From: Planctomycetia bacterium
GTDB taxonomy: Bacteria > Planctomycetota > Planctomycetia > Pirellulales > PNKZ01
Direction: 5' to 3'
Length of the DNA stretch: 39,826 nucleotides
Assembly (NCBI GenBank): GCA_021413845.1
Contig: JAIOPP010000053.1
Span: 1-39,826 of the forward strand
Part shown: positions 1,767-37,151 of the stretch, in pieces
Numbering within the stretch: position 1 is the first letter of the stretch
Layout of the letters: each line of letters starts with the position of its first letter
Program-made: the position numbers and the translations under genes
Notes under the pieces: model-generated
What the model was told of the DNA's origin: nothing
What the model saw: the letters and a program-made list of their open reading frames with translations, nothing else
Databases searched by the model: none

Positions 1767-2147
1767 CTAAAAGAGGGTCGCCGGTCCGTCCACGGCATTG
1801 CCCGTTTCGCTCGCCGGCGCTGCGTCGGCGGCGGGCTTCTTCGTACTACGTCGCTTCGAGCGCGTTTGTGCTTTTTCTTCCAAACTCAGCGTCGATTCGT
1901 CGTCGAACGGCTCCGTAACCGGCTTCCCCTCGGCGTCGACGCCGGCCAGGATTTCGATGCGGCGCTCCGCTTTTTCCAGCAAACCGTGACACTGCCGCAA
2001 CAGCCGGACCCCTTCTTCGTACCCGGCCAGCGAAGCTGCGAGATCGGTCCGGCCGTCTTCAAGCTGCTGTACGATCGCTTCCAAGCGGACGAGCGCTTGC
2101 TCGAAAGTGGGCGGAGCGGGGGGAGTTTGCGGGCTGGATTCAGGCAT
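1767..2147 (-). CDS. xseB: Exodeoxyribonuclease VII small subunit
   Basis: 126 residues. The core, about residues 14-75, reads TFEQALVRLEAIVQQLEDG followed by a second helix with SLAGYEEGVRLLRQCHGLLEKAERRIEIL. This is the standard two-helix XseB signature; the subunit binds XseA to form the single-strand DNA exonuclease VII. The tail is longer than usual: residues 76-126 are charged, then Lys/Arg- and Ala-rich, and probably disordered. The ATG at 2145-2147 is the only sensible start. xseA is not in this window. The gene lies just downstream of a heptamer palindrome (2169-2269) and upstream of ispA-dxs, in the common xseB-ispA-dxs order. Confidence 0.93.
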   Translation of the reverse strand: MPESSPQTPPAPPTFEQALVRLEAIVQQLEDGRTDLAASLAGYEEGVRLLRQCHGLLEKAERRIEILAGVDAEGKPVTEPFDDESTLSLEEKAQTRSKRRSTKKPAADAAPASETGNAVDGPATLF

Positions 2148-2168
2148 GAGGATCGATCAAGGGTTTGA

Positions 2169-2269
2169 ATGATAAGTGCTAAATGATAAGTGATAAATGA
2201 GGAACGAGAAGTGCCATGTCTCGGCGGCAGCCGTCCGACATTTATCACTTATCATTTAGCACTTATCAC
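2169..2269. repeat. Heptamer-built palindrome, copy 1 (between ribE and xseB)
   Basis: Left arm 2169-2199 is ATG followed by four heptamers: ATAAGTG, CTAAATG, ATAAGTG, ATAAATG. The right arm 2239-2269 is its reverse complement. The perfectly paired stem is 30 bp (2170-2199 with 2239-2268) around a 39-nt loop that is itself GC-rich. The arms are strongly AT-rich against GC-rich surroundings. The ribE stop codon (2252-2254) lies inside the right arm. The same unit vocabulary recurs at 2875-2953 and 34394-34471. It could be a REP-like mobile palindrome, a terminator/mRNA-end structure, or both; there is no adjacent T tract of the classical type. Confidence 0.85.
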
Positions 2270-2854
2270 TCCTGCGAGCTGCCGCGCCACGTATTTCGCC
2301 AACAGATCCGTCTCCAAGTTCACGCGATCGCCGACGCGGAGCGTTCCTAGAGTCGTAACCTCGAGCGTGTGCGGGATCAGTTGTACGCTGAAGCGTTCGT
2401 CTTCGACCATCACGACCGTGAGGCTCACCCCCTCGATCGCGATCGAGCCTTTCGACGCCGTCTGTCGGGCATACTCGCGCGGCAGCCGGAACCACATCTC
2501 GCTCCATTCTCCCAGATCCTGCCGGGCGTCAAGTGTGCCCGAGCAGTCGATGTGGCCGGTGACGAGGTGGCCGCCGAGCCGGTCGCTGAGCCGGAGCGAC
2601 CGCTCTAGGTTCACGAAGCTGCCGGGCACGAGCGACCCGAGCGTCGTGCGACTCAAAGTCTCCGGGCCGGCCTCGAAGTCGAGCAAGCCATCGGCCATCG
2701 CGACCACGGTGAGGCAACAACCGCTCACGCAGATGCTCTCGCCGAGCACGGCTTCGGCAGCGATCGCCGGCGCCGCAATGCGCAACCGCCGCCCCGGCGG
2801 CTCTTCGCGCACTTCGGCAACCGAGGCTTTGAGTTCGACGAGGCCGGTGAACAT
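2252..2854 (-). CDS. ribE: Riboflavin synthase alpha chain
   Basis: 200 residues; catalyses dismutation of two 6,7-dimethyl-8-ribityllumazine molecules to riboflavin. The start is the ATG at 2852-2854, giving the diagnostic N-terminus MFTGLVE; an in-frame upstream extension would read through a repeat and is rejected. Two lumazine-binding halves are visible: GESICVSGCCLTVV in the first and KGSIAIEGVSLTVV in the second, with GGHLVTGHID between them. The last residues, VISAK and the stop, are encoded by the heptamer palindrome at 2169-2269. Another palindrome lies immediately upstream. No other rib gene is nearby. Confidence 0.95.
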   Translation of the reverse strand: MFTGLVELKASVAEVREEPPGRRLRIAAPAIAAEAVLGESICVSGCCLTVVAMADGLLDFEAGPETLSRTTLGSLVPGSFVNLERSLRLSDRLGGHLVTGHIDCSGTLDARQDLGEWSEMWFRLPREYARQTASKGSIAIEGVSLTVVMVEDERFSVQLIPHTLEVTTLGTLRVGDRVNLETDLLAKYVARQLAGVISAK

Positions 2855-2874
2855 GGGAGAGGAGCGGAGGAAGA

Positions 2875-2953
2875 GTGATAAATGATAAGTGCTAAATGAT
2901 AAATGCCGGAGTTCGCCTCCCCCATTTATCACTTATCATTTAGCATTTATCAT
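2875..2953. repeat. Heptamer-built palindrome, copy 2 (between prenyltransferase-fold gene and ribE)
   Basis: Left arm 2875-2905 is GTG then ATAAATG, ATAAGTG, CTAAATG, ATAAATG. Right arm 2923-2953, read on the minus strand, is ATG then ATAAATG, CTAAATG, ATAAGTG, ATAAATG. The two inner units are swapped between the arms, so the stem is imperfect, around a 17-nt GC-rich loop. It lies in the 152-bp gap between the stop of the gene at 3007 and the ribE start. Confidence 0.85.
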
Positions 2954-3006
2954 TCGCCGCCGCCAGAATACCAAATAAGCGCCGCGATGGGCAGCGCTTC
3001 GGCGCT

Positions 3007-4734
3007 CTACCGGAAGTCTTCGCTCGTCGCTCTGTGGCCGTAGATCGGGAGGTAGCGGTAGTAGACTTCTAGGATCAGGATCGACATGGCCGTGTTGTAG
3101 AGTCGGCCTCCTTGGTCGCCGTGTTTGTCGGGGAAGTACCAACTGCCCGAGGTGTGTCCTTCGCGCGATTGCGATTCTAGGAGAAACGCCTTCATTTCCT
3201 CGTTCCAAGCGATCCACTCTTGGCCGCCGAAATGGCGGAAGACTTGCGTGGCGTAGTAGTTGTAATACTGGTCGTGGTCCGACGGCCCGCGCTTGCTCAA
3301 GCTCCGGATGCCGCGCTGCAAGGCGGGCTGGCTGCGCGGCCAGCCGCCGTACATCCGGCTGAGGAGCCCGATCGAGGTCATGGTCGGATCGTTTTTGGCG
3401 GGGCTTTGGTAGCCGTAGGCCGCGCCGCCGTCGTCTTGCACGCCGTCGAGAAACTTCTTCGCCGCAGTCCAAACTTCCGGCGGCACCGGCATGTAGGTCA
3501 GCTCCCCGCTCTTGAGCGCCATGAGCATCCAGCCGGTTACGGTCGTGTCGCCGACTTGGCCGGGGAAGTAGCGCCAGCCCCCTCCCTTTTTATCTTGCGA
3601 GTTGACGATGAAGCGAACCGCTTCGCGACAGGTGTAGTGCAAGTCTTCATCGCGCGTCAGCGCATAGGCTTCGCACAGCGCGAGCGTGGCGATCGCTTGC
3701 GAGTAGAGATTGATTCCTTCTTGCAAGTCGCCGCCGAGGGGCGTGGCGATGGTCTTCGCTTTGAGATACTCCAGCCCCTTGCGAACGGTCTCCTGGTACT
3801 CGCCGCGGCGATGCGTGTGGTTCGCCCCGAGAAACGGCAGCAGCGCGAAGCCTGTCGCGGCGGTCGACGAGCCGTGGTTGCCGGGATTGCCGCAGTATTT
3901 GCAGATCCCTTCTTGCCGATGGTTGAAGTGCCAACTGCCGTCTTCGCGTTGATGAGCCGCGAGCCAACGAAGCCCGCGGGCCACCGCTTTTTCGGTCTCT
4001 TCCGAGCCGCCGTCTTGGAGGAGTATGCCTTTGAGTTCGCCGTCGCGGCCGTCGAGCATGCTGAGCGTGGTGCTCGATCCGCCGAGGGGAGTCAGTAAGT
4101 CGCCGAGGCCGGAGTTGCCCGACAAGCCCGCCGGCGGGAGCTTCGGATCGTTGCCGAACTCGCTCCCTTTTCGGCCCGGCGCGGGAGTCGCGATCAGCGC
4201 GTCGACGAGCGAGCGGGGCGATTCCGTTTTGGTTGCCGGGGCATCGTTGCGCTGGATCTTCGTCGCCACCTTCGGCAGCGTCGCCAAGCTCGGCGCGACG
4301 ACGCTCGCGACGGTTCCTTCAAGCTCGACGCGCGGCGGCTTGCGCGTCGTGTCGAAGCCGAGGAGCGCCAACAATAGGACGAGCGCGAAATGCACGACGC
4401 CGCTCACCAGCGACGATACGATCAGCTTCCGGCTACCGCGAAACGCATCGGTGCTCGGCGCGGAGTTCGCCTTCGCCGGCGCGCGAACCTCTTTCCGCGG
4501 GATCACCCACCGCGGCTCTTCTTCGATCGCTTCCGCTACGGGCAACGCGCGCGGCAGAGAGGCACGTGGAATCGGCGGAGGAGTGGGATGCCGAGGTGTT
4601 ACGTCTCGCAGCACGGGCGGAGGCGCGATCGGTGCAGTCGGCGGCAACGGAACCCCGGTCGATGGCGCACTCTCTCCCGTGCCCGACGGAGCGGGATACG
4701 AAGAACCGATCGGCGGCAGCGCGTCGGACGACAT
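3007..4734 (-). CDS. Membrane-anchored protein with prenyltransferase/squalene-oxidase repeats
   Basis: 575 residues from the ATG at 4732-4734. A longer ORF from 4836 adds 34 residues that look like translated non-coding sequence. Layout: Pro-rich, probably cytoplasmic N-terminus (1-100); one transmembrane helix (about 104-126); Pro/Ala/Ser linker; then from about residue 250 an alpha/alpha-barrel made of repeats such as GLRWLAAHQREDGSW, with later copies around GLEYLKAKT and GGGWRYFPGQVGDTTVTGW. A CKYC pair (Cys278, Cys281) sits in the first repeat with several His nearby and could bind metal. The DxDD motif of squalene-hopene cyclases was not seen. Such proteins are common in planctomycetes with unproven function. 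It precedes ribE-xseB-ispA-dxs on the same strand but is separated by a palindrome. Confidence 0.8.
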   Translation of the reverse strand: MSSDALPPIGSSYPAPSGTGESAPSTGVPLPPTAPIAPPPVLRDVTPRHPTPPPIPRASLPRALPVAEAIEEEPRWVIPRKEVRAPAKANSAPSTDAFRGSRKLIVSSLVSGVVHFALVLLLALLGFDTTRKPPRVELEGTVASVVAPSLATLPKVATKIQRNDAPATKTESPRSLVDALIATPAPGRKGSEFGNDPKLPPAGLSGNSGLGDLLTPLGGSSTTLSMLDGRDGELKGILLQDGGSEETEKAVARGLRWLAAHQREDGSWHFNHRQEGICKYCGNPGNHGSSTAATGFALLPFLGANHTHRRGEYQETVRKGLEYLKAKTIATPLGGDLQEGINLYSQAIATLALCEAYALTRDEDLHYTCREAVRFIVNSQDKKGGGWRYFPGQVGDTTVTGWMLMALKSGELTYMPVPPEVWTAAKKFLDGVQDDGGAAYGYQSPAKNDPTMTSIGLLSRMYGGWPRSQPALQRGIRSLSKRGPSDHDQYYNYYATQVFRHFGGQEWIAWNEEMKAFLLESQSREGHTSGSWYFPDKHGDQGGRLYNTAMSILILEVYYRYLPIYGHRATSEDFR

Positions 4735-9995: not shown

Positions 9996-11504
9996 ATGCA
10001 GGCTCGTTCCGTTTGGCGTTGGGTTTCGCGCGTCGGTCTGATCGTGGTCGGCTTCGGCGGACTGCCGTCGTCGTCGAGCGCACAGAATCCGTTTGCTCCG
10101 ACTCCGCCCGCAGGCGCGGCTCCGGCGACCACGCCGCCGACCACGCCGCCGACCACGACAGCGCCACCGACAACGCCCCCTGCCGACACGACAACACCGT
10201 CTGCTACGCCGCCGGCTGCAACACCACCGGTCGTCGCGCCCCCGGTGATAACGCCACCGACTGCAACACCGCCCGCGCCGGCGAACCCGTTTGCACCATC
10301 GACCCCGGCGGCAGCGCCAGCCGTTCCACGTGCCGTGCCGGGCGCTACGCCTCCGGCTGCGGGTGCCGCGCCGAGTGCGAATCCGTTCGCGCCGTCGACT
10401 CCGGCTGCCGCCCCTGCTGTTCCATCTGCCGCGCCGAGTGCGAACCCGTTTGCGCCGTCGACTCCGGCTGCCGCACCGGCGGTTCCTGGTAAGCCACCTC
10501 CGGCCGCGGGCGCCAATCCTTTTGCGCCGACCACGCCCGCGGCTCCGGCGATGCCGGCCACGCCGGGCACCACTCCGGCTCCGACCACAACTCCGGCTAC
10601 GCCGCCGGCTGCGAATCCTTTCGGCACGAGCGTTCCCGCGACTCCGATTCCCGGCGCACCGCTGGTCGGTCCGCAGGCCGTGCCGACGCAAGACACGGTG
10701 CCGCAAGGTGGGTTTCGCGTCTTGGCTCCCGGCGTGCTGACGATGATCCCGAGCCCGGTCGGCGTCGACGACACGCGCAGCGAACACGATTTGATCGAGC
10801 TCTTAGCGAGCGCGCCGAACTACGGCGAGCGGCCGAATTCGCCGAACCGAAAACCGGCCCGCGGCGTGCGCTTCGAACACGATGTATGGGGCTTGGAGTT
10901 TGCGTTCAAGCCGATCCGCTACATTCGCCTTCCCGGCGCCGACGGCAAAGAACGGCTCGTCTGGTACATGGTCTTCCGAGTGAAGAACGGTCCGGTGAAG
11001 CGCTACGTGCATGATGAAACTCAGCCGAACAAGTTGCGTGGAGATTTAGTCGATAAGCCGTTTCTCTTCGTGCCGCGCTTCGAGTTGGAAAGCCATGACG
11101 TGAAGAAGCTGTACGTCGACAAAGTGATCCCGGAAGCGGTCGCCGCGATCCAAAAGCGCGAAGACAAGAACCGCAAGTTGCTCACGACCGCGGAGCTGAC
11201 GGGAGACATTCCGCCGAGCACCCCCGAGATCGACCGCAGCATCTGGGGCGTGGCGACCTGGGAAGGGATCGATCTCAATACCGACCGCTTCACGATCTTC
11301 GTCCACGGATTGACGAACGCTTATAAGTGGGTCGACGCAGCCGACGGTTTCAAAGCCGGCGACCCCATCGGCAAGGGGCGCAGCTATCAATACCAGGTGT
11401 TAAAGCTCAATTTCTGGCGTCCGGGAGACACAAAGTACGAACACGAAGAAGAAATTCGGTTCGGAATCCCCGGAGACGTTGACTACGCCTGGTTCTACAA
11501 GTAG
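9996..11504 (+). CDS. Secreted Pro/Ala/Thr-rich protein with NPF repeats and a conserved C-terminal domain
   Basis: 502 residues from the ATG at 9996; a start at 9918 would add 26 residues ahead of the signal peptide. Residues 1-30 form a signal peptide (VWRWVSRVGLIVVGFGG, cleavage near SSAQ). Residues 31 to about 220 are low-complexity Pro/Ala/Thr with six NPF motifs, three of them in near-identical NPFAPSTPAAAPAVP units. From about residue 230 a folded domain follows (RSEHDLIELL, VWGLEFAFKPIRYIRLP, WYMVFRVKNG, and FTIFVHGLTNAYKWVD) ending WFYK. I do not recognise this domain; secreted proteins with such a layout occur in planctomycetes. The linker may span the periplasm or cell surface layers. 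Function unknown. Confidence 0.8.
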   Translation: MQARSVWRWVSRVGLIVVGFGGLPSSSSAQNPFAPTPPAGAAPATTPPTTPPTTTAPPTTPPADTTTPSATPPAATPPVVAPPVITPPTATPPAPANPFAPSTPAAAPAVPRAVPGATPPAAGAAPSANPFAPSTPAAAPAVPSAAPSANPFAPSTPAAAPAVPGKPPPAAGANPFAPTTPAAPAMPATPGTTPAPTTTPATPPAANPFGTSVPATPIPGAPLVGPQAVPTQDTVPQGGFRVLAPGVLTMIPSPVGVDDTRSEHDLIELLASAPNYGERPNSPNRKPARGVRFEHDVWGLEFAFKPIRYIRLPGADGKERLVWYMVFRVKNGPVKRYVHDETQPNKLRGDLVDKPFLFVPRFELESHDVKKLYVDKVIPEAVAAIQKREDKNRKLLTTAELTGDIPPSTPEIDRSIWGVATWEGIDLNTDRFTIFVHGLTNAYKWVDAADGFKAGDPIGKGRSYQYQVLKLNFWRPGDTKYEHEEEIRFGIPGDVDYAWFYK

Positions 11505-33130: not shown

Positions 33131-34411
33131 ATGCGACGATCCGTACGATTTTCGACCTGCTTGCTTCGCGCCGCGCATCGCATGGCCCCCTCCCTAATCG
33201 GTGCGATCGTACTGGTTGGTAGCGCGGCTACGCCCGCACCGGCACAACAGTCGGCACCGCCGAAGACGACGAAGGATGCAAACGCCGCACCGTTGTCGGA
33301 CGGCAAAGACGGTCGCGATCTTGCGCTGGAGAACTTCCGGCCGAAGTCGACGCTCGTCGTGCCGGAGCATCATCTGAAGCACGCGAAGTTTCCCGTGGTC
33401 GACGTGCATGTGCATCCGAAGATCCGGCTGCATCACTCGCCGGACGCGCTCGACACGTTCGTGAAGACGATGGATGCGCAGCGGATCGCGGTGTGCGTGA
33501 GCCTCGACGGCGGGCTCGGGGCGGCGTTAGAGGAACATTCGAAATACGTCTGGACGAAGCACCGCGACCGGTTCGTGATCTTCTCGAACATCGATTGGCG
33601 CGGCGACGGCACCCCCGCCGACTACGCCACTTGGGACTGCCACCGGCCCGACTTCGGTCGCCGCATGGCCGCGGCATTGGCTGCCGCGAAGGAGGCCGGC
33701 GTGAGCGGGTTGAAGGTGTTCAAAGATCTCGGACTCGTTTACAAAAACCCCGACGGCTCGTTCATCAAGCTCGACGATCCGCGCTGGGATCCGATCTGGG
33801 AAGCGTGCGGCAAACTCGGCCTGCCGGTGATCATTCATAGCGGCGATCCGCCGGCGTTCTTTCAGCCGATCGACGCGCGCAACGAGCGGTGGGAAGAGTT
33901 GCATCGGCATCCGGAATGGAGCTTCTACGGGCCGCAATTCCCGCAGCGCGAGGAACTTTTGGCGGCGTTCGTGCGCGTCGTCGAGCGGCATCCGCAGACG
34001 ACGTTCATCGGCGCACATGTGGCCGGCAACTCGGAAGATCTTGCGACGGCCGGCGCGTGGCTCGACAAGTATCCGAACTTGGTCGTCGAGATCGCTTCGC
34101 GCACTTCGGAACTCGGTCGGCAGCCGTATACGTCGCGGAAGTTCTTCCTCAAGTATGCCGATCGCATTCTCTTCGGCACCGACGGCCCGCGCGTGCCCGA
34201 GCGGTTGTATCCGTATTGGCGGTTCTTAGAGACCGACGACGAATACTTCGCCTACGCCGAGAACCCGTTCCCGCCGCAAGGGTTTTGGAACATCTACGGA
34301 ATCTTCCTACCCGACGAAGTGCTTAAGAAGGTCTACCACGAGAACGCGGCGCGGATCATTCCGGGCGTGAAGGAAAAGCTCACAAAGTGGGAAATGATAA
34401 ATGCTAAATGA
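33131..34411 (+). CDS. Secreted amidohydrolase family protein
   Basis: 426 residues from the ATG at 33131 (an ATG at 33182 would also leave a signal peptide). Hydrophobic signal SLIGAIVLVGSAATPAPAQQ ends near residue 40. The metal-dependent amidohydrolase-2 barrel shows VVDVHVHP (His93 and His95), LKVFKDLG, PVIIHSGDPPAFF, FIGAHVAGN and RILFGTDGPR, giving the His, His, His and Asp ligands of the family. Relatives include decarboxylases and lactonases; substrate unknown. The last residues MINAK and the TGA stop (34409-34411) come from the heptamer palindrome. The convergent CinA/NadD gene ends 46 bp away across the palindrome. Confidence 0.88.
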   Translation: MRRSVRFSTCLLRAAHRMAPSLIGAIVLVGSAATPAPAQQSAPPKTTKDANAAPLSDGKDGRDLALENFRPKSTLVVPEHHLKHAKFPVVDVHVHPKIRLHHSPDALDTFVKTMDAQRIAVCVSLDGGLGAALEEHSKYVWTKHRDRFVIFSNIDWRGDGTPADYATWDCHRPDFGRRMAAALAAAKEAGVSGLKVFKDLGLVYKNPDGSFIKLDDPRWDPIWEACGKLGLPVIIHSGDPPAFFQPIDARNERWEELHRHPEWSFYGPQFPQREELLAAFVRVVERHPQTTFIGAHVAGNSEDLATAGAWLDKYPNLVVEIASRTSELGRQPYTSRKFFLKYADRILFGTDGPRVPERLYPYWRFLETDDEYFAYAENPFPPQGFWNIYGIFLPDEVLKKVYHENAARIIPGVKEKLTKWEMINAK

Positions 34412-34471
34412 TAAATGCTAAATGAAGGACGGACCTCTGGCATTTATCACTTATCATTTAGCACTTATCAC
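34394..34471. repeat. Heptamer-built palindrome, copy 3 (between convergent genes)
   Basis: Left arm 34394-34424 is ATG then ATAAATG, CTAAATG, ATAAATG, CTAAATG. Right arm 34441-34471, read on the minus strand, is GTG then ATAAGTG, CTAAATG, ATAAGTG, ATAAATG, the same order as the left arm of copy 1. The loop is 16 nt. The stem is imperfect. Both convergent genes end inside it: the amidohydrolase stop at 34409-34411 and the CinA/NadD stop at 34458-34460, so it may work as a shared transcript end. Confidence 0.85.
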
Positions 34472-35603
34472 TTCTCCTCAGTTCCGTCGAACTCACATCG
34501 GCCCGAAACTCCGGCTCGTCGATGCCGTCGCAGATTCGTCGCAGCGTGTCGGGCAGGTCGAGATCGGCGAGTGTTTGGAATCGGTCGCCGCAGAGCCTGC
34601 CGAAGACTAAGAAGCGGCAGCCGAGCGCTTCGATCTCGGCGAGCGTCCGGTCTCGTTCGGCTTCGCTGCCGGCCGTGAAGCGGGGATCGGCGACGCGCAG
34701 CAACGTGTCGATGCCGCACACCAGCGTGGCCTCGGGAAACAGCCGTGCCTTCTGCACCATGCGTGGTGCGCGCGTGAACCAGACGCGCGTGCGGGAATCG
34801 AACTGCCGCGAGCGATCTTCCATTTCTTCGAAGTCGAGCGGCGGCTTCTCGACGTTCTCGATCGAGAACTCGAAATCGACCGAGCAACCAAGCCGCGCCG
34901 CAGCGATCTCGGCCATGCGTAGATGCCCGGCGTGCAACGGATGAAACGAGCCGGGGAACACGGCCCGCGGCGCAGCGGATCGGCCGGCGAATTCGCGGCG
35001 TTCGTCCGTGCGCGCGAGCCGGTCTTCGGCTAGCTCGATCCAGGCCGGAAGCGCTTCGGTGCGGCGATGAACCGGTCGTTCGTGCGGCGCAAGCTTGAGC
35101 GGTGGGCGATCGTCGATGCCGCACGCTTCTGCCAACGATTCCAGTGCCAACGCCGCGGCGAGCGCTTCTTCCTCGTCGCGTGAGCGGGCTCCTTTTTCGA
35201 GTTCGAGCGAAGTAGACCAGGTACAACGGTTCGACTGCACGGCTAGATGAATTCGGTGCGAGCCGCGCTTGGGCCGATCCGAAGCGAGACTCGCCGACAG
35301 CCCTAGGCCGACGACCGGAAAATCGTCGGCGCCGCGCAAACGCCGCGCACGCTCGAAGCAACGCATCGCCATTGCGCGGGCCGTTGACGAAGAGCAGGCT
35401 TGCTCCGGAGTCGAGCCGAGGAACTCGACGAGCGCCGGCAGCGCATACGGCACGAGCGCTTCCAGCACGGTTTGCGATGCGCCGGGCACGGTCAACAGCT
35501 CGCTGATCAAGCGGCTCCCTCCCCCGGTGGCGGCGGCCACGAGGCGCACGGGGCTCTCGTGAATGCGGCGAACCAGCGCGACGTTGGAAGGATCCGAAGC
35601 CAT
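34458..35603 (-). CDS. CinA C-terminal-like domain fused to a NadD-like nucleotidyltransferase
   Basis: 381 residues from the ATG at 35601-35603; the open frame upstream to 35867 looks non-coding. Residues 8-160 resemble the CinA/PncC nicotinamide-nucleotide amidase domain: LVAAATGGGSRLISELLTVPGASQTVLEALVPYALPALVEFLG, then CSSSTARAMAMRC. The usual ESCTGG and YSNxxK segments read AAATGG and YALPAL, so amidase residues are altered. Residues 213-381 are a nucleotidyltransferase: AVFPGSFHPLHAGHLRMAEIA (HxGH at 224-227) and VSSTELRR near the end (the ISSTxxR motif). Together they suggest a pyridine-nucleotide role. The last residues SDKC and the stop come from the palindrome. Confidence 0.8.
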   Translation of the reverse strand: MASDPSNVALVRRIHESPVRLVAAATGGGSRLISELLTVPGASQTVLEALVPYALPALVEFLGSTPEQACSSSTARAMAMRCFERARRLRGADDFPVVGLGLSASLASDRPKRGSHRIHLAVQSNRCTWSTSLELEKGARSRDEEEALAAALALESLAEACGIDDRPPLKLAPHERPVHRRTEALPAWIELAEDRLARTDERREFAGRSAAPRAVFPGSFHPLHAGHLRMAEIAAARLGCSVDFEFSIENVEKPPLDFEEMEDRSRQFDSRTRVWFTRAPRMVQKARLFPEATLVCGIDTLLRVADPRFTAGSEAERDRTLAEIEALGCRFLVFGRLCGDRFQTLADLDLPDTLRRICDGIDEPEFRADVSSTELRRSDKC

Positions 35604-35822
35604 GCGTCGATTATAAAGGAGCGATCGCGAGATCGTTAGACGTCGGAGACAGGTCGGCGGAATGCGACGATAGCAGAAGTATATTCCGCACTTCGCCGCA
35701 TATTTTGCGGGAGACCGGATAACAGCCCTTTTTCGTGCGGGCGAGGCTTCGTTATAACTCCAAGCCCAAGGTGCGCCATAAAGCACGCGTTCGTTTTCAT
35801 TTCCCGAGGTCGTTCTTTCGCT

Positions 35823-37151
35823 ATGCTTCGAATTCACAATCCGCGCCTGCTCGACTATCTGCGTCATCGTTATCAGCCGGAAGACTTACGGCGCTTGATC
35901 GCGTTTCTGCGCGGCGAGAAGACGTTCCACTTCCCGGCCCTTTCGACCGGTCTTTACCCTGCGGCCCATCTGGCCGAAGGAGACTCGTCGGGCTACGCGA
36001 GCGTGTGGGTGCGCGACAACGTGCATGTGGCGCACGCGCATCTCATCGACGGGCAGCATGAGATCGCGCGGAAGATCGTCGTCGGGTTGGTTTCGTTTTT
36101 CGGCACGCAGCGCAAGCGGATCGCCGACGTATTGGCCGGCGTTGCCGATCCGAGCGATCCGATGCTACGTCCGCATATTCGCTTCGACGGTAAGTTGCTC
36201 GCCGAGATCGATCAGAAATGGGCCCACGCTCAGAACGACGCGCTCGGCTATTTCCTCTGGATCGCGACCCGTCTCATCGAGGAAGGGCTCCTGACGGTCG
36301 ACGCCGCGACGGCGCAAGCGCTGGCGGGCACGGCGTTGTTCTTAGAGAAGATCGAATTCTGGCGCGACGAAGATAGCGGGCATTGGGAAGAATCTCGCAA
36401 GCAAAGTTCTTCGAGCATCGGCACGGCGCTGGCCGGATTGCAGGGCTTGCTGTCGCTCGTGGAGCGGCCGGATTGGAGCCCGATGTTGAAGTTCGGCGAG
36501 GAAGTCTTGACCCGCACGCGGCTGGAGAAGCTGGTGGCGAAGGGGCGCGAGGCGCTGACGATCCATCTGCCGCACGAGTGCGCCGATGCCGATACGGCGA
36601 AACGACGCGAGGCGGACGGCGCGCTGTTGTTCTTGGTTTATCCGCTGGAAATCGTCGACGAGAAGGCGTCGCTCGCGATCATCGAATCGGTCGTGCGCGA
36701 GCTGCAAGGAGACATCGGTATTCGTCGCTACAAGGGAGATTCCTATTGGTGCGCCGATTATAAAACGAAGCTGTCGTCGGATATGTGGACCGCCGACTTC
36801 AGCGACGACATGAGCGGCCGCGATGCGATGCTGCGCGCGGGGGAAGAAGCGCAGTGGTGCATCTTCGACCCGATTCTCTCGGCCGCTTACGGTCGTCGGT
36901 TCCAAGCGACGAAAGACCACAAAATGCTCGCGCTGCAGACGGAGTATCTCAATCGCTCGCTCGGCCATCTCACGGCCGACGACTCCCGGTTCGGCGGCAT
37001 GCGCTGCCCGGAGTCGTATTACTTGGAGAACGGCCGTTACGTGCCGGTCGACCAAACGCCGCTCCTCTGGACGCAAGGGAATCTCCTGACGGCGCTCCGG
37101 ATGATGGAGCGGAGCCTGGAACTCCAATCCGTCGGAAACGCCGGAAACTAG
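35823..37151 (+). CDS. Glycoside hydrolase family 15-type / phosphorylase-kinase-alpha-like protein
   Basis: 442 residues from the ATG at 35823, without signal peptide. An (alpha/alpha)6-barrel protein: DSSGYASVWVRDNVHVAHAHL, WAHAQNDALGYFLWIATRLIEEG, EKIEFWRDEDSGHWEESRKQSSSSIGTALAGLQ, GIRRYKGDSYWCADY and TPLLWTQGNLLTALRMM are GH15/phosphorylase-kinase-alpha features. The WEE segment (near residues 186-190) sits where the general acid lies in glucoamylases. The second Glu of active GH15 enzymes near the C-terminus is not obvious. It could cleave alpha-glucans such as glycogen, or only bind them. It is divergent from the CinA/NadD gene and precedes the flippase gene. Confidence 0.8.
   Translation: MLRIHNPRLLDYLRHRYQPEDLRRLIAFLRGEKTFHFPALSTGLYPAAHLAEGDSSGYASVWVRDNVHVAHAHLIDGQHEIARKIVVGLVSFFGTQRKRIADVLAGVADPSDPMLRPHIRFDGKLLAEIDQKWAHAQNDALGYFLWIATRLIEEGLLTVDAATAQALAGTALFLEKIEFWRDEDSGHWEESRKQSSSSIGTALAGLQGLLSLVERPDWSPMLKFGEEVLTRTRLEKLVAKGREALTIHLPHECADADTAKRREADGALLFLVYPLEIVDEKASLAIIESVVRELQGDIGIRRYKGDSYWCADYKTKLSSDMWTADFSDDMSGRDAMLRAGEEAQWCIFDPILSAAYGRRFQATKDHKMLALQTEYLNRSLGHLTADDSRFGGMRCPESYYLENGRYVPVDQTPLLWTQGNLLTALRMMERSLELQSVGNAGN

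Follow-up and report, generated by a model that had tools for sequence, protein, structure and literature searches.

What kind of element is a palindrome that keeps its unit length and its symmetry while its units are shuffled? The question is raised by three AT-rich palindromes in a 39,826-nt stretch of planctomycete DNA (the window, meaning the whole stretch that was analysed), at 2172-2266, 2878-2950 and 34397-34468, in which every arm consists of 4 x 7 nt of the form [A/C]TAA[A/G]TG, hereafter MTAARTG. A first-pass annotation had placed them correctly and had given the right loop sizes of 39, 17 and 16 nt. Their parts are as follows:

Copy 1 left arm, 2172-2199, plus strand: four heptamers, preceded by GAATG (2167-2171).
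Copy 1 loop, 2200-2238, no strand: 39 nt.
Copy 1 right arm, 2239-2266, minus strand: four heptamers, the same as in the left arm, followed by CACTC (2267-2271); the stop codon 2252-2254 lies inside.
Copy 2 left arm, 2878-2905, plus strand: four heptamers.
Copy 2 loop, 2906-2922, no strand: 17 nt.
Copy 2 right arm, 2923-2950, minus strand: four heptamers.
Copy 3 left arm, 34397-34424, plus strand: four heptamers; the end (34411) of the ORF 33131-34411 lies inside.
Copy 3 loop, 34425-34440, no strand: 16 nt.
Copy 3 right arm, 34441-34468, minus strand: four heptamers; the end (34458) of the convergent ORF 34458-35867 lies inside.

Read from outside to inside, both arms of copy 1 run ATAAGTG CTAAATG ATAAGTG ATAAATG (28/28 identical), those of copy 2 run ATAAATG ATAAGTG CTAAATG ATAAATG and ATAAATG CTAAATG ATAAGTG ATAAATG (24/28), and those of copy 3 run ATAAATG CTAAATG ATAAATG CTAAATG and ATAAGTG CTAAATG ATAAGTG ATAAATG (25/28). 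The first-pass annotation held that unit order differs between copies and between arms, which is so for copies 2 and 3 and fails for copy 1; the identity that it saw between the right arm of copy 3 and the left arm of copy 1 extends to the right arm of copy 1. Its broader point, that the units vary although their length and the palindrome are preserved, agrees with the arms as we read them, and the shuffling is variation inside a 7-nt tandem repeat. With one mismatch at most, MTAARTGMTAARTG has 19 matches in the window against 0.02 expected.

The elements lie in spacers, as had been described, but copies 1 and 3 also contain stop codons of adjoining ORFs. Copy 1 has an exonuclease VII small-subunit ORF on one side and, on the other, a riboflavin-synthase-like ORF with a Lumazine binding domain (2252-2854), whose stop codon is supplied by the right arm of copy 1; copy 2 is immediately upstream of the same riboflavin-synthase-like ORF. 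At copy 3, an amidohydrolase-family ORF meets an ORF that runs towards it and has no match in Pfam; both terminate within the element. Elsewhere in the window, a tandem repeat at 10364-10486 has two copies of a 63-nt unit with 91% matches; the unit is a multiple of three, hence the repeat is probably coding.

The first-pass annotation had allowed that such runs might occur at the chance rate, or in these three places alone. Neither is the case: the source genome (7.08 Mb, 167 contigs) holds 20 exact matches to the three-unit pattern against none for the pattern read backwards, far above chance, and these matches form seven sites, three in the window and the others on contigs C93, C124, C129 and C166. 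Six of the seven are inverted pairs, and the site on C129 is a lone arm. The array at locus L160, outside these seven sites, is likewise unpaired. The exact pattern recurs in 4 of the 57 genomes searched, namely the source genome, two of the same genus (G002 and G003) and one of the same family (G006), and in none of 50 genomes from other families of the order. A GTDB scan for MTAARTG runs returned at least 119 loci in many phyla. In all 19 pairs read by eye in the source genome, G002 and G006, it is the 5' arm that carries the MTAARTG strand, with some arms degenerate.

Are these palindromes, then, inherited at their sites? Orthologous spacers are ~70-80% identical, too diverged to fix the exact site, and their contents change from relative to relative. 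No heptamer array is seen at the copy 1 spacer of G001, G002, G003 or G006; in G001 the ORFs on its two sides overlap. The copy 2 spacer is occupied by YGAACCC arrays in both G001 and G003 and by a GGMGGAA pair in G006, with nothing clear in G002. At the copy 3 spacer G006 has an MTAARTG pair, G004 a pair of the AAGCRGA type (by eye), G003 a CACGGAGG palindrome of 8/9-nt units (L185) and G002 nothing. Simple descent at the site was rejected, the spacers of copies 1-3 having been refilled by different repeats in relatives. Two side observations belong here. In G006 the copy 1 spacer (L177), between the riboflavin-synthase-like and exonuclease VII ORFs, contains a palindrome that is not built of heptamers. 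In G003, CACGGAGG-like palindromes of 8-9 nt units occur both at L185 and before a nuoG-like ORF (L359), where relatives hold heptamer elements, and perhaps represent a second class with another period.

The heptamer unit is not fixed: related genomes hold arrays of period 7 in which the unit is one of many others and which frequently form inverted pairs, and it is the period, not the unit sequence, that is the special feature. At a threshold of at least 17/21 matches at lag 7, we counted 8 arrays in 400 kb of the source genome outside the window, 10 in 400 kb of G003, 1 in 200 kb of G002, 4 in 200 kb of G005 and 9 in 327 kb from 20 other genomes of the order, against 0-1 in Markov controls. 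In the source genome and G003, lags 4, 5, 8, 10 and 11 gave 0-1 arrays, lags 6, 9, 12 and 15 gave 0-18, as expected of coding DNA, lag 13 gave 3 and 0, and lag 14 echoed 7. A looser threshold left the lag-7 excess clear in four of five samples, G002 being without a clear excess (4 vs 3 in its control). The units seen include YGACCYC, YGACCAC, TGACTAA, CGAACCA, GGGTGAG, GGGTTCR and others. The sampled DNA, counted together with the window, has 65 inverted repeats whose loops do not exceed 100 nt; internal periodicity is seen in 19, and in 15 of those the period is 7. With loops of up to 700 nt and slightly different settings, period 7 accounts for 14 of 29, and periods 9 and 12 for 5 each. By eye, G outnumbers C in the 5' arm of 11 of 15 gene-less pairs, and the reverse holds in 4, all from G005; an automatic count on 14 pairs gave 9 vs 4 with one tie.

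In 1.57 Mb, 14 period-7 inverted pairs have loops that measure <100 nt in 12 cases, fall between 100 and 330 nt in none, and reach 402 and 601 nt in one case each. The 601-nt loop comes from the pairing of window copy 1 with copy 2; the 402-nt loop contains a gene matching PF05635, the 23S rRNA-intervening sequence protein (S23p, also IVP). No gene remnants were found in the loops of these 14 pairs. At L158, in G002, two arms of the window's own unit, MTAARTG, lie 394 nt apart and enclose a 125-aa ORF that matches PF05635 (E 6.4e-18) and TIGR02436, four helix bundle protein (E 1.7e-22), and lies between nuoF-like and nuoG-like ORFs (neighbours named by eye). On a Prevotellaceae contig (L095), NTAAATG arms likewise surround a PF05635/TIGR02436 gene. 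The window itself contains no PF05635-like ORF.

The family is widespread in this order, with matches in all seven genomes of the source's family (37 matches) and in 49 of 77 genomes of the order, against none of 14 control genomes. Is the company it keeps with heptamers more than anecdotal? We took 54 loci, namely the best 30 of the 37 matches in the seven genomes and the best match in each of 24 of the other 42 genomes with matches, and scored inverted repeats between 110-nt flanks at thresholds of at least 14 and at least 18; controls were ORFs, not annotated genes, of at least 200 aa (at least 150 aa in a second set), with the start codon picked by rule. At the lower threshold, a flank inverted repeat is present at 38/54 PF05635 genes of the order and 1/300 control ORFs (Fisher p 4e-37), the 54 including, as L301, the locus L158 that raised the idea; at the higher threshold the counts are 29/54 and 0/300. 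Lag-7 arrays occur in either flank at 32/54 genes against 8/300 controls, and in both flanks at 12/54 against none, while every other lag from 5 to 12 is found at no more than 2/54 loci. At 50 of the 54 loci the 5' arm is richer in G than in C, at 2 it is poorer, and at 2 the numbers are equal.

The association extends beyond the order. From the 119 listed GTDB loci with MTAARTG runs, 36 were chosen and 35 genomes searched, mostly from other phyla (most, not all, since two are titled Planctomycetota), and 32 of the 35 have a PF05635 gene; the three in which none was found are titled Psychrobacter, Acetobacter and Pectobacterium. Of 30 loci in this second set one had no ORF and was dropped; among the remaining 29, which include the gene of L095 again (as L354), 16 have a flank inverted repeat against 5/300 controls, a comparison in which the inverted-repeat count alone is fair because the loci were fetched for their arrays, so that 89/300 controls have a flank lag-7 array. 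Flank inverted repeats were also found in 7 of 12 plasmid records (taken from 35 with a match). As a separate observation, on three cyanobacterial plasmids (L370 501-869, L373 501-857 and L377 498-857) the four-helix-bundle gene stands among CRISPR genes, twice between cas6 and cas4, with heptamer arrays adjoining, and once between cas10 and a gene of the cmr3 family.

Gene and arms do not always go together. Below the inverted-repeat threshold are 16 of the 54 loci in the order and 13 of the 29 elsewhere (among the latter L355, from a genome titled Planctomycetota), and some of these misses (L286, L292, L293 and L296) show no array at all. One of these, L292, is in the source genome at C166:2100-2411, ~1.6 kb from the MTAARTG pair C166:4032-4103. 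Conversely, 115 of the 119 listed GTDB loci with MTAARTG runs showed no PF05635 gene, and most MTAARTG arrays thus stand alone; where the gene is present, in 4 of the 119, it is always within 120 nt of the array, and just 0.28% of bases are that near. Gene-less and gene-bearing pairs of one and the same unit coexist in single genomes, five against one in G002 and six against one in G006.

The nuoF/nuoG-like spacer allows us to follow one such element between relatives. A PF05635 gene is present there in the source genome, G002 and G006, and absent from G001 and G003; the protein of G002 is 58% identical to that of the source and 79% to that of G006. Its arms are of MTAARTG in G002 and G006 and, on both sides, of a CAAAATG type one substitution away in the source genome, where this gene, on C96, is the nearest approach to a PF05635 gene with MTAARTG arms, none having been found there. 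A PF05635 gene whose arms are of the GTCCGTT type also stands before an ORF that is nuoD-like by eye, at L285 in G001 and L295 in G005, and two different spacers of nuo-like clusters hence host such elements. Does the unit change with the protein? The arm units at PF05635 genes, in 56 rows that count L354 and L095 as one gene, give 55 distinct strings, or 50 after merging rotations. The mean smallest difference between units rises from 2.11 for proteins at least 60% identical (18 pairs) to 2.90 at 45-60%, 3.17 at 35-45%, 3.38 at 25-35% and 3.65 below 25%, with 3.37 for random units of the same composition, a trend that decides nothing because drift accounts for it as well as co-evolution would.

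The family takes its name from sequences that interrupt rRNA genes, and inside such a gene, too, arms of shuffled heptamers were found. On a plasmid of Azospirillum lipoferum 4B (L381), a 23S rRNA gene, recognised by Rfam RF02541 across the whole 1333 nt, contains a PF05635 ORF (E 1.7e-33) flanked by the heptamers CAGAGGA CGGATGA CAGAGGA CGGAGGA and CAGAAGA CGGATGA CAGAAGA CAGAGGA; the arms score 10 in the automatic test and 23.5 with the right stretch, because the rule-based choice of start codon lost an arm. This is the shuffled-heptamer pattern of the window at the classical site of an intervening sequence.

As for the protein, AlphaFold2 predicts that of L158 to be a four-helix bundle (22-row alignment, pLDDT 92.3), and the model matches the folds of 2RLD, of the S23 ribosomal protein family (E 3.7e-7), and of 2GSC, Xcc0516 of Xanthomonas campestris (2.5e-3), with five chains in each entry. 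Weaker matches link it to Avd (4DWL, 0.026) and to a ribonucleoprotein of a diversity-generating retroelement (8UB7, 0.031); a likeness to Avd of these retroelements is also hinted at by a weak match to the Avd profile (18.9 bits against a cut-off of 80).

We therefore posit, with a probability of roughly 70%, that the window palindromes are ORF-less miniature relatives of S23p/IVP intervening-sequence-type elements, lodged in the spacers of protein genes. The full form comprises about four or five heptamers, a gene of ~120 aa for the four-helix-bundle protein (PF05635/TIGR02436, S23p) and an inverted array of the same heptamer; the short form has the arms and a short loop alone. Both occupy sites that tolerate insertion, such as those between operon genes, between convergent genes and at gene ends, and in some bacteria sites inside 23S rRNA. 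Once transcribed, the arms could pair into a stem of ~28-35 bp, which RNase III would most likely cut, by analogy with rRNA intervening sequences. Tandem-repeat dynamics would vary and exchange the units of an array, letting their order and sequence drift while preserving the period of 7 and the inversion. The anatomy, the period, the enrichment at PF05635 genes, the two forms with one unit in G002 and G006, and the differences in occupancy among relatives are observations; from there we infer that the elements are mobile, that the protein binds its heptamers, and that the gene-less copies derive from gene-bearing ones or were moved by their protein. Several results count against this reading: no PF05635 gene with MTAARTG arms was found in the source genome, most of the listed GTDB runs have no such gene beside them, 16 of 54 and 13 of 29 genes fall below the inverted-repeat threshold, no loop with a gene remnant turned up as an intermediate, and the loops share no clear sequence with a PF05635 gene.

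Could the period itself be read by the protein? A bolder version, which we offer tentatively and would sooner bet against, sees a single class of minimal mobile elements across bacteria: a pentameric, Avd-like protein would read one heptamer per subunit of a four-to-five-unit arm, gene-less copies would be moved in trans, perhaps via an RNA intermediate, and the excess of heptamers among the simple repeats of bacteria would largely be their residue. If true, one heptamer per subunit would account for a period of 7 in arrays of every unit, for the agreement of the two arms in their unit and for a drift of the unit alongside the protein.

The miniature-element reading has to be weighed against a simpler one, that these are plain heptameric simple-sequence repeats, generated by slipped replication, given an inverted partner by template switching and removed from genes by selection, with the PF05635 gene as a passenger that lands or survives within such palindromes. 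Gene-free period-7 arrays are indeed common, as the 115 of 119 listed loci illustrate, some (C129, L160) are unpaired, the kinds of unit are many, and relatives refill their spacers differently. Nevertheless, it leaves unexplained both the excess at PF05635 flanks (38/54 and 16/29 against 1/300 and 5/300) and the same build inside the 23S rRNA gene at L381, and we regard it as unlikely.

More improbable still is that the palindromes are hairpins kept by the host for a function in RNA, whether as bidirectional transcript ends, in attenuation or in mRNA stability, the array being a way to a long stem. The folds are strong (z-scores of -6.1 to -12.5 for the six strands), the elements sit at gene ends, and in the available text on Xanthomonas heptamer repeats transcripts start or stop at them more than at controls (PMC4692102). 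Against this, the sites are not conserved among close relatives, nor do the arms resemble terminators, as the first-pass annotation had recognised. They are followed by no T-run, and a GC-rich stem with a T-run is absent from copies 1 and 2 by scan and from copy 3 by eye; of five terminator-like matches in 1800-3200 (1.2 expected), none is made by an arm pair and one is in the loop of copy 1. In the same interval, a scan gave two promoter-like matches (0.4 expected), both in arm sequence; neither these nor the terminator-like matches are decisive. Adjoining copy 2 and distinct from it, a 9-pair terminator-like hairpin lies at 2977-2999 on the minus strand, just after an ORF ending at 3007.

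REP/REPIN-type palindromes spread by a RAYT transposase, although likewise dispersed in spacers, are a very remote prospect here, in keeping with the first-pass view that this is no classical REP: the arms are tandem heptamers of many kinds, the loops are unrelated and no fixed core is common to the copies, while the linked RAYT that the annotation proposed to look for did not appear, all six Y1_Tnp (PF01797) matches of the source genome being on contigs that bear no element (C155, C116, C57, C6, C167 and C67) and single matches ~6 kb (G003 C1) and ~12 kb (G002 C266) from an array in relatives, which speak for such a link, being taken as chance. Telomerase-like end addition, in which units are added onto both 3' ends of a break that is then joined, was also considered and dropped; it fits the orientation and not the gene between the arms.

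If the miniature-element reading holds, the heptamer simple repeats of spacers, the convergent pairs that they form and the S23p/IVP gene known from rRNA intervening sequences, so far treated as three separate things, appear to be one kind of element. This would set a four-helix-bundle family of uncharacterised function in a physical context, give it nucleic acid as a likely partner, and predict a binding sequence for each of its members, its own arms. The nature and movement of intervening sequences thereby become testable.

How do these elements compare with systems already described? Convergent heptamer pairs are known from Xanthomonas, where 70 and 75 pairs of GGGAATC repeats were reported in two genomes (Rehm and others 2015, PMC4692102). 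In the available text of that paper, the arrays resemble ours in having 7-nt units, mostly four per array, in being heterogeneous and intergenic, and in often lying near or overlapping a stop codon; the window copies, too, consist of two convergent, mostly intergenic arrays of at least two 7-nt units. They differ in that GGGAATC is G-rich and treated as a quadruplex former, whereas MTAARTG is without any run of G, and in that 83% of sites are kept between the two genomes (PMC4692102). The text available to us draws no link to a gene (PMC4692102), though X. campestris, which is among the species with described pairs (PMC4692102), has the four-helix-bundle protein Xcc0516 (2GSC). The TAACTGA repeats of Beggiatoaceae are likewise intergenic heptamer arrays found in several phyla, with a unit, TGATAAC, close to the TGATAAR seen here; according to the accessible part of their description, they differ in being direct repeats, with one inverted case in 170 sets, and were read as translation control (PMC4679880). 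In a literature mainly outside subscription journals and without supplements, which makes for weak evidence, we found no paper that joins heptamer arrays to the four-helix-bundle gene in general, and heptamers beside S23p were mentioned in a Coxiella paper alone, as far as its available text goes (PMC4990558).

It is with the rRNA intervening sequences that the likeness goes furthest. The window copies are not filed among them because of their location: they stand in protein-gene spacers, none within a 23S rRNA gene, and have loops of 16-39 nt without an S23p/IVP ORF. Their build, on the other hand, is that of an intervening sequence, with terminal inverted repeats, here 28-bp arms, able to form a long stem, and forms with and without an ORF are known among intervening sequences as well (PMC4990558, PMC2672173), small ORF-less ones having been reported in the consulted part of the latter. 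In CPR bacteria, the IVP domain, called functionally uncharacterised in the available text, occurs in insertions of both 16S and 23S rRNA genes (PMC11270868). For the Coxiella intervening sequence, the available text describes a 28-bp terminal stem cleaved by RNase III and, before the S23p ORF, tandem GACAGAT heptamers, two or three by strain (PMC4990558): heptamers, as in the window, beside the very gene that we find between such arms across the order and beyond.
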